A DNA stretch of 64,000 nt from contig JAPWUD010000001.1 in NCBI GenBank assembly GCA_028275705.1, positions 124,001 to 188,000 on the forward strand, given 5' to 3'. How positions within the stretch are numbered: position 1 is the stretch's first letter; each line of letters opens with the position of its first letter. This DNA comes from Desulfurococcaceae archaeon (GTDB lineage Archaea; Thermoproteota; Thermoprotei_A; Sulfolobales; Desulfurococcaceae). The notes under the pieces are model-generated. The model did no database searches, had not been told where the DNA came from, and saw nothing but the letters and a program-made list of their open reading frames with translations. The position numbers and the translations under genes were made by a program. Below, piece by piece: positions 31,930 to 40,835 of the stretch.

Positions 31930-32713
31930 GATCTCACCTCAATGGATTAAACCAATACTTATGATTTTAAAAGTAACTCTCAAGAAGAGAGTCTCTTATG
32001 GAGAGTAATTAAAGTTCCAAATACTTGTTAACAGCGATATCACCAATCAGCCCCCACTACTCTATAAACTCTCATAACATATGCCCGTTCACATTGCTTA
32101 CGACCATGGGTTCATACGTAATAACGAATGAAACACTCTATATACCCACACTTTTCCCATAAATCGTTAAAACACCTGAATTCTCGGAGTCTAAATTTGC
32201 TTTTTGTTAATTCATTATTACATCTTGGGATTTAATACTATGATTACCCGCAAGTAAAGGAATTCACCAAGGAAATATTGTTCCTCAATGAACACGTTAA
32301 AAAGATTTACTTTATGGAATATACTAAAGCACCAATTTTACGAGCTCTTAGTATGCTCAGCGAGCCTACTTAAAGGTGAAGCAGAGAGCAGTATTGAAGA
32401 CCGTTGGGACACTGTATTAAAAACGCGTTGAGCTACCGCACCCATCAAGCTCAACTCTACGAATACTAATAGATCCTGCTAATTCACACATTAAACTCCT
32501 AATTTAGACTACAGCCTGCACAATATTCTAAAAATATATAATAAACCCTTAAAAGCCAACTAAACTATTAAACAATCCCACGAGAATACATATACATCCT
32601 CAAAGCCCCCGCTAATTAACATAGTTTAGTCAAACACATTACATAAGGCTCTCATTTTGAGAGTTAGCTTAAAATAATCTCTCCTCTACTGGAGGATCAT
32701 AGAGGTGTTAGAC

Positions 32714-35328: not shown

Positions 35329-35373
35329 TTTATATACTTGGGTTACCCCAAGTTTACTTGGGGTGGGGTAAGT
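35329..35373 (+). promoter_or_regulatory. TATA box followed by two tandem 18-nt pseudo-palindromes abutting the start codon
   Basis: TTATATA then ACTTGGGTTACCCCAAGT (35336-35353), TT, ACTTGGGGTGGGGTAAGT (35356-35373), TTG start at 35374. Confidence 0.7.
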
Positions 35374-36483
35374 TTGTTGTTTGATGTGAGGCCTAAGGAG
35401 AGAAGAAGTGATCTGTATGACTTTGAGAGAGAGCTTGAAGAGCTTAAGAGAGGGTTGGAGAGAACTCCTATTACTCTATTAATTGGAGTGAGAAGGACTG
35501 GTAAGACCTCGCTTCTTAAGGTTGCTTTAAGTGAGCTTGGATATCCCTATGTGTATTTAGATACGAGGGTTTCTACTAATCCGACTTATCGAGATTTCGC
35601 TAATATTGTAAAGTATTCTCTAGAGGACTTTATAGCTAGAAATACTTCTCTACGTAGGAAGATAGTGGAGAGACTGCGTAGCGTTAGCGGTGTTTCGATC
35701 TCTATATCACCATTATCAGTTAATATCTCCTGGAGGGGTGATAAGAGATTTGAGTTATTAGAATTATTTAATGCTCTCAACAAGATCGGCTATGACATTG
35801 GAGAACCAGTCATAATTGCATTTGACGAGGCACAGGAACTTAGGAGAATAACTTGGATAGACTTTACGCGGATTTTCGCCTATATATACGATAACTTAGA
35901 GTATATTAGACTAGCGTTAACAGGCTCCGAAATAGGCCTCCTATATAGATTTATAAACGTTAATAGTGGCGAGTCTCCTCTCTATGGTAGATACATACAC
36001 GTAGTGTCCACAAGAAGACTAAGCTTAGAGGAATCACTGGATTTCCTCGAGAAGGGATTTAGAGAAGTGGGCGTGGTAATACCCCGACACGTCATTGAAG
36101 ACGCAGCCAGTGTATTTGGAGGTATTATTGGCTGGCTTACGCTCTTTGGCTACAACTGCTACATGAATATTAATACATGCTCTGAGAGCATTGAAAAAGT
36201 CATTAAAATCGCGGTTGAAACAGCTAAACGAGAAGTAGAAAACTTCTTGAAGACTAGGAGAAGCGAGAGATACCCAGTTATCTTAAAACTATTAACTATA
36301 GAGAGGAGTTGGAGTGAAATAAAAAATAGACTCGAGGATATCGAAGGTAGGACTATAAATGATAAGACACTCAACGAGCTATTAACAACACTACTAAATC
36401 TCTCAATAATTGAGAAAACAAACAACAAGTACATAATAGCGGACCCTATAACTAGAAAAGCCGTAGAAGAACTAGCGGGCTAG
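35374..36483 (+). CDS. Archaeal STAND/AAA-like ATPase (copy A)
   Basis: LLIGVRRTGKTSLL Walker A, IIAFDEAQEL Walker B; probable start TTG 35374 (ORF track 35338). Confidence 0.85.
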   Translation: MLFDVRPKERRSDLYDFERELEELKRGLERTPITLLIGVRRTGKTSLLKVALSELGYPYVYLDTRVSTNPTYRDFANIVKYSLEDFIARNTSLRRKIVERLRSVSGVSISISPLSVNISWRGDKRFELLELFNALNKIGYDIGEPVIIAFDEAQELRRITWIDFTRIFAYIYDNLEYIRLALTGSEIGLLYRFINVNSGESPLYGRYIHVVSTRRLSLEESLDFLEKGFREVGVVIPRHVIEDAASVFGGIIGWLTLFGYNCYMNINTCSESIEKVIKIAVETAKREVENFLKTRRSERYPVILKLLTIERSWSEIKNRLEDIEGRTINDKTLNELLTTLLNLSIIEKTNNKYIIADPITRKAVEELAG

Positions 36484-36618
36484 ATCAATTATTGGAGGAA
36501 ACCAAGAGCTTAATAAATAATCGTGTAGTGATGGTCTCCAAGATAAATGCTTTAAGACCCTGATGAACCCTCTATCCTCACCACGTACTTCTAGGTAATT
36601 GCAAAAAGCCTCCTTCAA
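36472..36618 (-). CDS. Unassigned 48-aa ORF or gene fragment (not in ORF track)
   Basis: TTG start; frame open 36472-36672: ...AHRLNRAECSKELKEAFCNYLEVRGEDRGFIRVLKHLSWRPSLHDYLLSSWFPPIIDLAR*. Confidence 0.3.
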   Translation of the reverse strand: MKEAFCNYLEVRGEDRGFIRVLKHLSWRPSLHDYLLSSWFPPIIDLAR

Positions 36619-36697
36619 CTCTTTACTACACTCAGCTCTGTTTAATCTATGAGCTAGGCGAAATCTAGTACTTTATAGTGGTCTACTTCCTTTAACA

Positions 36698-37189
36698 TCA
36701 TATTTTCCCAATAGGATAAATGTACTTGTCATCAGAGCTCATTTTAAAGAGACCTAGAAATGCACCCCATTGAAGCAGTGTATTCATCGCCTCCCGGGTG
36801 TTTCGTGGATAAAACCTCGTTACTATATCTATGAACTCCTCTACTCTAAGTCTCTTTTTAGCCTTCAACTCGTTAATAATGGTTTTAAATGGCTCAATAT
36901 TATCTATAACCTCTCTTAATTTACTCTTAACATGCCGGACATGCCCCTTTACAATCTCCAAACCCAGCTGGGTTAATTTAATATTCCCATTTTCTACAAC
37001 CTCCACTAGCCTCAATGAAGAGGCTACATCAATTATGTGTGGTAGCATATCGATTTGTTCTCCGAGAAGATCCCCGAGATTCATTGGATCCACGGAGTCT
37101 CCAAGACTATGAATTGCCTCAAGTAGGCCTAACACTTGATCCAGTTGTGCATTATGTGGAAGTACATAACTGTGCTCGCTACTCGACAA
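36698..37189 (-). CDS. AAA-associated (AAA_assoc_C-like) domain protein linked to nitrate/sulfonate-type ABC transporters
   Basis: Sequence character and divergent position next to NitT/TauT-type permease and ATPase. Confidence 0.55.
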   Translation of the reverse strand: MSSSEHSYVLPHNAQLDQVLGLLEAIHSLGDSVDPMNLGDLLGEQIDMLPHIIDVASSLRLVEVVENGNIKLTQLGLEIVKGHVRHVKSKLREVIDNIEPFKTIINELKAKKRLRVEEFIDIVTRFYPRNTREAMNTLLQWGAFLGLFKMSSDDKYIYPIGKI

Positions 37190-37257
37190 TCCCTCTATAC
37201 ACCAGTATAGACACTTAATAACATAACTCCCTTAATAAGTTTAAACACGGTGACTAA

Positions 37258-38772
37258 ATGAACCTCAATGAATTGACAATAGAGCTTACAATATCTACAT
37301 CACTAAGCCTGGGGAGAATGCTTGCAGCGTACATGCTATCCCTCATACTAGCAATAGTTGCAGGGGTTGCAATGGCTAGGAACAAGTATGTTGAGTCAAT
37401 ACTACTCCCAATACTCGATGTTCTCCAATCAATACCCATACTCGGCTTCTTCCCAGCCGTACTCGCAGTATTTATAACTACACTGGGGCCAGTGGCTGGG
37501 GGTGAGCTGAGCTCAATATTTTTAATAACTACTAGTCTTGTCTGGAACATGATCTTCGGCGTTTACTCGAGTATTAAATCCCTAGACCCCTCAATCGATC
37601 ACTTAGTAGCAGTGTATAAACTACCATTAATTCACAGGTTTCTATACATATACCTACCCGCCTCGAAGAGCTCTATTGCAGCAAATAGCATTATTTCATG
37701 GGCTGGCGGCTGGTTCTTCCTTACAAGCGCTGAAGTAATCTCAATGGGTAGAGTTGAGTATAGACTGAAAGGACTGGGTTCATTCATCATAAAGGCATTC
37801 GAAGAAGGCAGTACCATGGCATATACTACTGGTTTACTAGCACTATTCATGGTTATCTTAGTTTCCTACCTCATTATTTGGAACCCATTTACAATGAAAT
37901 ACACAGGTACAAGAACTCTTCTAGGATTTATGAAGGCATATGATGTTATCGATAAAGCACTCTCTAAAACCTGGGGTTTTATAGTGGAGAAAGTAGTCGC
38001 GGCATATAATGTTGTTGCTAGAGTTAAAATTAAGAGTACTCATATAATAATTTGCTCTATATTACCCCTACTCCTCTACCAATACCACACTAGACTAGTA
38101 CTCGATAATTCATTATACAGTAAAATCCTAGAGTATGGTGTCGACTTCCTTAGAGTAGCACCAATAACTCTCATCAGAGTATACCTAGTAGTTGTTACAG
38201 GACTCGCAGTATCAATACTACTAGCCTACATCTCCCACACTCGGCTAAAACTAGGGAAAATAATAGTTATGTCGGGTGAAGTATTGTCATCAATTCCTGC
38301 AATGATGTGGTGGCCAATACTACTACCGCTTCTAAAGGGGTTTCCACAAAGTGTAATGATGTTTGTCTATCTACAAGGCTCTCTATGGTATGTCTTCTTC
38401 AATGTTTTAATATTTGGCTTATCTAGTCTAAGGGAGAGTATCATAGAGCTCTCGGAGATCTATAATGTAAAGGGGAGACTATACTTGTCGAGAATATTCA
38501 TACCATCCCTCCTCCCAAGCATACTTGCAGGGGGTTTATCAGCATCGGGAGGTGCGTGGAATGCCTCAATCGCAGCAGAGTACATAGTGCTCGGAGGTTT
38601 AACCGTGGACATGGGTGGTGTGGGTAGTCTACTTAATAAACAAGCCCAAGCAGGCGACGTACTTGGTGTTTTATCAACATCTTTTTTCATGAGTTTAGTA
38701 GTTGTATTTATCAATAAGACGATTTGGGCTAGAATACTGGGGAAAATACGTGGTTACTATGTCGTCGAGTAA
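37258..38772 (+). CDS. NitT/TauT-type ABC transporter permease, tandem-duplicated
   Basis: Two BPD-permease modules in 504 aa. Confidence 0.8.
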
Positions 38773-39508
38773 GAACTATGTCGTGGAGGTTGTAGGGGTT
38801 TCAAAGAGCTATATAAGCGGGGGGAGAGAAGTCGAGGTACTTAAAGACATTAGCTTCGAAGTAGGCAGGGAATTCGTCTCCATAATTGGGCCAAGTGGGT
38901 GTGGAAAATCAACACTACTGAGAATAATTGCAGGCGTGGAGAAACCCAGTGGGGGGAGAGTTGTTTTTAACCTCAATAGAAAGCCCATTATTGGCTTCGT
39001 ATTTCAATTTCCCACGCTTCTACCATGGATGACTGTGCTAGACAACGTAATTCTACCATTAATAGCTACTGGTGTAGAGAAAAGCAATGCCATTGAGAAG
39101 GCTAGAATGACTTTAAAAGTTGTTGGACTAGGGGGATTTGAGGATTTTTACCCGAGTGAGCTTAGTGGTGGAATGAAGCAGAGAGTTAACATTGCACGTG
39201 CATTAGCAATAGGGCCCGATGTCTTATTAATGGATGAGCCATTCTCAAACCTAGACCCATTAACAGCCGAGAGCTTGAGGAGCGAGGTACTTGACATATG
39301 GCTTTCTTCAATACTACCCGTTAAATCCATTATAATGGTTACACACAACGTTGAAGAAGCCGTTATAATGTCTGATAAAGTAATTATACTGTCTCCACGG
39401 CCAGCTAGAGTATTGAAAATAATAGACGTAAACATACCTAGACCACGAAGTAGAAAAATGCCCGAAGTCCAAGAGATGGTTGATAAAGTATACGAATATG
39501 TTAGTTAA
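38759..39508 (+). CDS. NitT/TauT-type ABC transporter ATP-binding protein
   Basis: [37 protein letters not shown]; internal ATG at 38759. Confidence 0.9.
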
Positions 39509-39638
39509 CAACCTTTCTCTATACTCAACCATGTATCACTATTTCCAGTTATTCGAGAACTTATAGTAGGAAACTTCTTCTGAGATAGAAACCAGTTTAA
39601 GCTGTTAGTTAGACAAATATGCGTAGAGTTATTGAGGG

Positions 39639-39761
39639 TTGACGGTGGAAGGTGTGGAAACAGTGTACTTAGATCCGAGCGTTATTGTGAAACATAGCTT
39701 GAGTAAGCTAATAGCGATCTCGCCGCTTCACTCTAAGGTGGGAATTAATAGTATTTCCTAA
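39639..39761 (+). pseudogene. Truncated PIN-domain (VapC-like) fragment
   Basis: MTVEGVETVYLDPSVIVKHSLSKLIAISPLHSKVGINSIS*; VYLDPSVIVK resembles the PIN N-terminal strand. Confidence 0.35.
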
Positions 39762-40791
39762 TACCGTGTTGGAGCACTGGGTCTGTTATCTCGTATTCTT
39801 CGTTTTCCTTCCTTATGAAGCCCGAGTCTGCGAGGTTTTTAATTATTGTAGCTAGTGTGTTGTTGGGTATTCTCCCTAGTCTCGCCTCAACACCTCTCTT
39901 TACCTCAGACCACCTAGCTCTACCGAGTGTTGCTATTATCTTCAATACTTCCCTATACCTTCTCTCACCAACACCATACACTCTAAGAGCGTGTTCTAAC
40001 TCACTTAGAGCAAGCTTAGATGCTTTATCAAGAATAGAGTCTATGTCCTCTCCACTAGTAGTTAAAGCGAAGCCGAAGTACGTGAGCCACCCAATAACCC
40101 CGTCAAACCTCTTAATAGCTTCATTAACCACTTCATCGCTAACTCTAACACCTTCTTGCTCAAAACCCTTAACCAAGAACTCTCTAGACTCAGCATCACT
40201 CAGTTTCCTCAATTTAACCTCAGTGAATGCTCTACCATATAGTGGCGCCTCGGGATCATTTATTCTCAAGAACCTGTAGAGTAGGCCTATCATGGAGCCT
40301 GAAACAATGATCTTTAAGTCTAGGTGGTCGTATGCATATGCAATTAAAGAGTCAAACCTATACCCAGACCTCCTAAGCTCCTGTGCCTCATCGAGAACCA
40401 AGACCTTACCCTCCAGTGCGTGGAGAACTCGGAGAAGAGATCTCTCACTCCTCACTTTAAACCTAACTCCAAAACCACCAACACTAACCTCTTCAACATC
40501 CCTTAACGCCTTTAAAGCCCATTCATGTCTACTCAACTCCTCTTCAAGCAAGTTTAAGAATGAATTCAATGATATCATTCCTGAAGGTAGGAGTCTACAG
40601 TCTAAGTAGACATAATCTAGTCTCTTTTCATTGAGATATGTAAGTATTAGTGAAGTCTTCCCATACCTCCTAAGACCTGAAACAACCACTAGCTTACCCC
40701 GTCTCAAACCATTATCTAAAGTAGATAACTCGCTCTCCATGTTGAACAAGTCTTCTCTCCTTCTCTTAGGTTCAGGGTTAAAGTATCCCAA
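39745..40791 (-). CDS. Archaeal STAND/AAA-like ATPase (copy B)
   Basis: VVSGLRRYGKTSLI Walker A, VLVLDEAQELRRSGY Walker B; paralogue of 35374-36483. Confidence 0.85.
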   Translation of the reverse strand: MGYFNPEPKRRREDLFNMESELSTLDNGLRRGKLVVVSGLRRYGKTSLILTYLNEKRLDYVYLDCRLLPSGMISLNSFLNLLEEELSRHEWALKALRDVEEVSVGGFGVRFKVRSERSLLRVLHALEGKVLVLDEAQELRRSGYRFDSLIAYAYDHLDLKIIVSGSMIGLLYRFLRINDPEAPLYGRAFTEVKLRKLSDAESREFLVKGFEQEGVRVSDEVVNEAIKRFDGVIGWLTYFGFALTTSGEDIDSILDKASKLALSELEHALRVYGVGERRYREVLKIIATLGRARWSEVKRGVEARLGRIPNNTLATIIKNLADSGFIRKENEEYEITDPVLQHGIRKYY

Positions 40792-40835
40792 AAGTCACCC
40801 CCCTAACTAAGTTACCCCCCTAACTTACTTATATA
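40792..40835 (-). promoter_or_regulatory. TATA box and two tandem 17-nt G-rich pseudo-palindromes abutting the start codon
   Basis: Minus strand: TATATAA..., AGTTAGGGGGGTAACTT, AGTTAGGGGGGTGACTT, then TTG start at 40791. Confidence 0.75.

Follow-up and report, generated by a model that had tools for sequence, protein, structure and literature searches.

Tandem operators upstream of archaeal STAND-type ATPase genes are predicted to be read by the winged helix of the encoded protein

The window analyzed here is a 64-kb stretch of DNA (64,000 nucleotides) from a Desulfurococcaceae archaeon. It contains two genes, termed A and B, for P-loop ATPases of the PF01637 family, and the interval between a TATA-box-like element and the start codon of each gene holds two tandem dyads that we regard as the units of a putative operator. 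The features of the two loci are listed below, with the basis of each assignment in brackets; the start codons of A and B were deduced from the sequence.

35329-35336, + strand: TATA-box-like element of gene A, TTTATATA (sequence)
35336-35353, + strand: putative operator unit 1 of gene A, ACTTGGGTTACCCCAAGT (dyad score, P 0.001 against shuffles)
35354-35355, + strand: TT between the units of gene A (sequence)
35356-35373, + strand: putative operator unit 2 of gene A, ACTTGGGGTGGGGTAAGT, directly 5′ of the start (sequence)
35374-36483, + strand: gene A, PF01637 ATPase of the SSO1545 / archaeal STAND type, start TTG at 35374 or 35377 (Pfam, profile matches)
36259-36432, + strand: C-terminal winged helix of A (PF21100 match, covariation)
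36361-36363, + strand: D330 of A in the recognition-helix signature INDKTL, predicting C as the outer arm base (ACTT) (covariation)
39745-40791, − strand: gene B, second PF01637 ATPase of the same family, 348 aa (Pfam, profile matches, AlphaFold2 model)
39826-39864, − strand: recognition helix of B, residues 310-322, NNTLATIIKNLAD, in which N310 predicts G as the outer arm base (AGTT) (model, residue mapping, code)
40789-40791, − strand: likely start codon TTG of gene B (sequence)
40792-40808, − strand: putative operator unit 2 of gene B, AGTTAGGGGGGTGACTT, directly 5′ of the TTG (sequence)
40809-40825, − strand: putative operator unit 1 of gene B, AGTTAGGGGGGTAACTT (best tandem-dyad site of the window)
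40828-40835, − strand: TATA-box-like element of gene B, TATATAAG (sequence)

The arrangement was quantified with a tandem-dyad score that combines two dyads of five pairs each, spaced 17-21 bp apart, with the agreement between the units, and dinucleotide shuffles served as the control. Copy A scored 12.0 (P(shuffle) 0.001) and copy B 13.5, a value equalled in 0 of 1000 shuffles. When both strands of the window were scanned, copy B was the top site and copy A ranked joint second with two sites near 211-275 and 32246-32310 (12.0 each). The dyad centers are 20 bp apart in copy A and 17 bp apart in copy B; in gene A, the last A of the TATA match doubles as the first A of unit 1, a unit that recurs in near-identical form at relatives L077-L080 and L051-L053. 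The original prediction had described two tandem dyads filling the TATA-to-start interval of both paralogues, with the last unit abutting a TTG, and both points were borne out at A (TTG 35374) and B. Gene A has two consecutive TTGs, at 35374 and 35377, and its frame remains open further 5′ up to a TTG at 35338 within unit 1; because the conserved protein begins with 'LFD', translation probably starts at 35374 or 35377. Only background scores of 9-10 were obtained at the possible starts of L001 and L007, two further PF01637 proteins encoded in the genome but not closely related to the family.

Both proteins join an ATPase module to a winged helix. The PF01637 ATPase_2 P-loop domain was matched at 50.1 bits in A and 34.6 bits in B (curated cut-off 33.2), and the PF21100 MCM_C-like winged helix at 35.4 and 46.8 bits in the two proteins (cut-off 27). 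The family consensus carries LFDRERELEE and DGIPGWL, which we take to be the N-terminal hhGRExE-like and GxP motifs of PF01637 STAND proteins. A profile search against the PDB matched 2QEN (PAB2304, E 1e-93) and 2FNA (SSO1545, E 1e-88) over the whole profile and nothing else at E ≤ 1e-5, so it did not place the family with Orc1/Cdc6. The AlphaFold2 model of B (pLDDT 95.9) shows helix 310-322 followed by a two-stranded wing and is closest to 2FNA (TM 0.90), with 2QEN at TM 0.84; more distant fold matches include Cdc6/Orc1 on origin DNA, RuvB, NLRs, CED-4 and a maltose-system regulator entry (8bob). A PADLOC search for anti-phage defence systems returned weak matches only, to the candidates PDC-S27 (9e-10) and PDC-S01. 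The genome carries several family members, some of them truncated (G000:C5, C21, C32), and the distribution is patchy: of the 8 genomes from this genus, only 3 have a member at profile E ≤ 1e-20.

Tandem dyads abut the start codon of relatives in Desulfurococcales, in Thermococcales and far beyond; the original prediction thus withstood its own test, as absence of the elements from other family members would have refuted it. Among 183 non-redundant upstreams of relatives, 71% reached a score of 12 or more, compared with 0.27% of shuffles. These upstreams came mostly from Thermoproteota (Thermoproteia), together with Thermococci, Bathyarchaeia, Hadarchaea and Asgard bins and a few from bins labelled Thermotogae and Caldiserica. 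In 65 of 90 high-scoring upstreams the centers stood 19 bp apart, a mode that the shuffles lacked. The TATA-like element most often started 12-16 nt 5′ of the unit-1 center, and the start codon (ATG, GTG and TTG being equally frequent) mostly lay 7-12 nt 3′ of the unit-2 center; since this distance varies, the positional profile anchored on the protein start was blurred. Typical units are TTCTGGGGCAGAA, GTATCAGGGGTGATAC, GTTACAGGGGTGTAAC, CTACTGGGGTGGTAG, GTTCCGGTGCGGAAC and CTACAGAGGTGTGTAG, in which the arms are specific to the gene and a GGGG-like core is common to the family. Further members from this genome and from its genus also have tandem dyads, with different sequences. The operator of L002/L019 (G000:C32), TACTACATACCTATGTAGTAACTACATAGGTATGTAGTA, consists of almost perfect palindromes and lacks the usual GGGG core.

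Seven loci in the Thermotogae- or Caldiserica-labelled bins (L114, L115, L119, L126, L137, L139, L153) hold the gene together with tandem dyads, and a bacterial −10-like TATACT/TATAAT occupies the place of the archaeal TATA box. It looks as if the gene had moved with its operator and the promoter had then adapted, or the bins may be in error.

We then compared the operators with the proteins behind them. Operator similarity followed winged-helix identity (partial r 0.24, reached in 0 of 300 permutations), as opposed to ATPase-domain identity (partial r −0.035). The strongest columns were alignment position 321, where the recognition helix begins (N310 in B, D330 in A), and wing position 339. 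At position 321, Asp was paired with C in 226 half-sites and with G in 9, Asn with G in 85 and C in 0, and Lys with G in 81 and C in 0. The resulting residue-base rule, by which the outer arm base is C with Asp or Glu and G with Asn, Lys or Arg, was obeyed in 105 of 107 training cases with a callable C or G, and both window genes fit it, A combining D330 with ACTT and B combining N310 with AGTT. A tree of the protein with the winged helix removed accommodated 8 changes of the residue and 10 of the base, and each of the eight residue changes fell on an edge that also carries a base change (0.38 such coincidences expected; hypergeometric p 5e-13). The association also persisted with one vote per 50%-identity cluster (Fisher p 0.0014). 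A second rule, read from the training table, links a short wing to TTC/GAA arms (42/49 versus 8/117).

Both rules were examined in a held-out set, 77 additional non-redundant upstreams drawn from elsewhere in the phylum and from four further genomes, for which the C/G prediction had been fixed beforehand. The score reached 12 in 53 of the 77, compared with 0.3% of shuffles and 0 of 231 windows inside the same genes. Wherever a C or G was callable, the outer base agreed with the prediction (37/37): Asp/Glu genes had C in 20 cases and G in none, and Asn/Lys/Arg genes had G in 17 and C in none. Arms of the TTC/GAA type accompanied a short wing in 16/17 cases versus 2/53 (p 1e-12).

Several observations weigh against so simple an account. 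Roughly 30% of the surveyed members fell below the threshold and a few have one unit or none (L098, L170, L255); most of the sub-threshold upstreams had the same layout on visual inspection. Nineteen held-out Asp/Glu genes carry A or T as the outer base, which is uninformative for the C/G rule. Because the genes are related, simple counts overstate independence, and looser clustering leaves too few clusters, at which point the association is not significant. Neither is the ranking of columns clean, as some outside the winged helix also entered the top ten. Nevertheless, since the operator covaries with the winged helix of the very protein encoded behind it, the factor concerned is most likely the ATPase itself, and the covariation makes it very probable that each ATPase reads its predicted operator through its own winged helix. 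The original prediction that each ATPase has a diverged private operator, serving autoregulation, is strongly supported by this covariation.

Genome scans indicated how private the operators are. In 15 Sulfolobaceae genomes, every 19-bp tandem pair of TTCTGGGGNNGAA stood at the start of a family gene, some of these genes being decayed. In 197 genomes, tandem sites of GTATCNGGGGTGATAC and GTTCCGGTGNGGAAC belonged to family genes, to copies with a frameshift or to remnants of the N-terminus (L383 and L388, classed by eye), with a single orphan; isolated single matches to the three operator types lay in unrelated sequence. As tandem copies are nearly exclusive to family genes, no second target is visible for the three operator types scanned. 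For the operators of A and B, the one search made, with a short pattern only, gave no more matches than the reversed-pattern control. A search for mobile carriers matched no plasmid or phage record. Co-resident pairs shared an operator (similarity ≥ 22) in 0 of 69 cases, whereas the share was 13% for pairs from different genomes (a permutation test at a laxer cut gave P 0.002); we left this result out of the evidence because orthologues inflate the between-genome side.

The orphan (L363, 1501-1516) is a tandem GTATC operator pair with no recognizable family gene behind it, either a relic or a second type of target. Tandem operators are well preserved at several decayed or frameshifted ATPase copies (L256-L259, L369, L370, L373, L383, L388), and the family seems to turn over fast.

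From these sequence patterns we infer physical binding, dimer geometry, repression and dependence on ATP or a signal. In the proposed mechanism, the ATPase, a P-loop STAND/AAA+ module with a C-terminal winged helix, would bind its own operator between the TATA box and the start codon, with one dimer probably occupying each unit and cooperativity between the two. That paralogue's recognition helix and wing would read the variable arms, and the common asymmetric GGGG-type core may be recognized by some conserved region of the protein or be kept for another reason. The bound ATPase would block RNA polymerase or TFB, and with it the start of transcription, thereby repressing its own gene until released by its nucleotide state or some signal. 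Occlusion of RNA polymerase fits because two cooperative-looking sites lie between the TATA box and the start codon; because the ATPase module of related STAND proteins is a nucleotide switch, its nucleotide state or a ligand could plausibly bring about release. We therefore regard it as probable that each ATPase binds a private tandem operator and represses its own gene in an autogenous circuit, and the effect of such binding is likely to be mainly repression.

The ATPase could instead bind its operator as an activator or a two-state switch. The covariation and the held-out test speak for binding of either kind, and STAND regulators such as MalT are activators. However, the sites lie 3′ of the TATA box, where they cover the expected start site and extend to the start codon, and archaeal regulators bound in that region usually repress; an activator or a two-state switch is thus unlikely.

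Alternatively, the tandem dyads might mark an iteron- or ORB-like replication or partition locus, with the ATPase as an Orc1/Cdc6-like initiator binding beside its gene. The B model does resemble Cdc6/Orc1 on origin DNA (2qby, E 1e-8), and AAA+ plus winged helix is the layout of an initiator. Against this, only two units are present and their placement is strictly from promoter to start codon, several copies per chromosome each have a different specificity, no plasmid or phage record was matched, and the family is 2FNA/2QEN-like, not Orc1. We judge an initiator role highly improbable.

The orientation of the G-rich core bears on whether the units act as DNA or as RNA. Among genes scoring at least 10, the unit-1 core was on the sense strand in at least 94 and on the opposite strand in 26-30, the remainder being undecided, whereas unit 2 had G on the sense strand in 141 genes and C in 1. 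An RNA switch, one of the roles originally envisaged, would have the units fold as leader hairpins that control translation; the arms are complementary, the unit-2 G is Shine-Dalgarno-like and nearly always on the sense strand, and G-T mismatches exceed A-C (29 versus 14). The G-T excess can, however, be explained by G-rich composition, and unit 1, located between the TATA box and the expected start site, is probably untranscribed in archaea. A unit-1 core found in either orientation fits a DNA site and not an RNA loop, and since arm specificity also follows winged-helix residues, we rejected the hairpin reading as hardly tenable. The fixed core of unit 2 just 5′ of the start codon suggests a second use as a Shine-Dalgarno sequence.

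Likewise, we can scarcely credit that a separate family of cognate transcription factors, rather than the ATPase, reads the operators, given that the arms covary with ATPase winged-helix residues at the expected DNA-contact positions and did so in 37 of 37 held-out cases. Control by G-quadruplexes, also raised by the original prediction and favored by G runs of 4-6 in both units of B and unit 2 of A, was rejected as next to impossible, since most relatives have only two G-tracts, typically one a unit and often on opposite strands, and some operators (the L002 and GGTGCGG types) have no run of four G at all. What stands of the original interpretation is hence the private autoregulatory operator, without its RNA-switch and G-quadruplex alternatives.

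Between the two ATPase genes, the window also encodes a free-standing AAA_assoc_C protein (PF09821, 36698-37189), divergent from a nitrate/sulfonate-type ABC permease-ATPase pair (37258-39508). Downstream of gene B, 39600-39740 resembles the beginning of a broken gene (VYLDPSVIVKHS...).

Among known proteins, SSO1545 (2FNA) and PAB2304 (2QEN) belong to the same PF01637 family over their full length and share the domain order of A and B. To our knowledge, their structures were solved without an assigned function or DNA target; proteins of this type are here predicted to be autoregulators. Judged by its recognition-helix class, SSO1545 would be expected to bind sites resembling ACTTC(T/C)GGGGGTAGAAGT, and PAB2304 sites resembling ACTTACGGTGGCGTAAGT. 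MalT likewise joins a STAND ATPase module to a DNA-binding domain, but its domain is of the LuxR type, accompanied by a sensor domain, and it activates other operons, whereas the family of A and B has a winged helix, no recognizable sensor domain and its own promoter as sole detectable target. Orc1/Cdc6 on origin DNA (2QBY) shares AAA+ plus winged helix and, near the gene, dyad sites that contain a G-string; A and B, however, fall in a different family, lack origin features and have operators that vary between paralogues. Archaeal autorepressors such as Lrp, TrmB and viral repressors also exert negative feedback through sites over the promoter start region. Each of those is a single small regulator with one site type, whereas the ATPases form a large set of paralogues whose sites are encoded differently from gene to gene and follow a residue-base code that can be read off. 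DNA binding has been reported for the plant STAND/NB-ARC NLRs Rx1 and I-2, with structural comparison to Cdc6/Orc1 and SSO1545 (PMC4599002, PMC4714197), but, unlike in the ATPase family, with no tie to operators of their own genes. A literature search, with most subscription journals outside its reach, found no description of such ATPase operators. Autorepression by tandem operators is already known; a STAND ATPase family with a private site per gene and a legible protein-DNA code appears to be new.

In a wider reading, SSO1545-type STAND ATPases would form a superfamily of mutually insulated one-gene circuits, in which each paralogue has its own dyad address, recognized according to a simple residue-base code (helix plus wing), and gene and address move together between species, even into bacteria; in our estimation this is evenly balanced between holding and failing. 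As the winged helix has no detectable target beyond its own promoter, what is controlled would be the activity or dose of the ATPase and not a regulon; one example would be a signal-released switch of a defensive or selfish kind.

Hyperthermophilic archaea abound in PF01637 ATPases, and structures have been available for nearly twenty years, yet we know of no function assigned to them. The family now gains a concrete predicted activity, sequence-specific binding to its own promoters. Sites are predicted for almost all members, together with a candidate residue-base code for their winged helix, which is joined to a STAND switch, the class of module behind NLR immune receptors and MalT. It is also a potential source of many naturally orthogonal, thermostable repressor-operator pairs.

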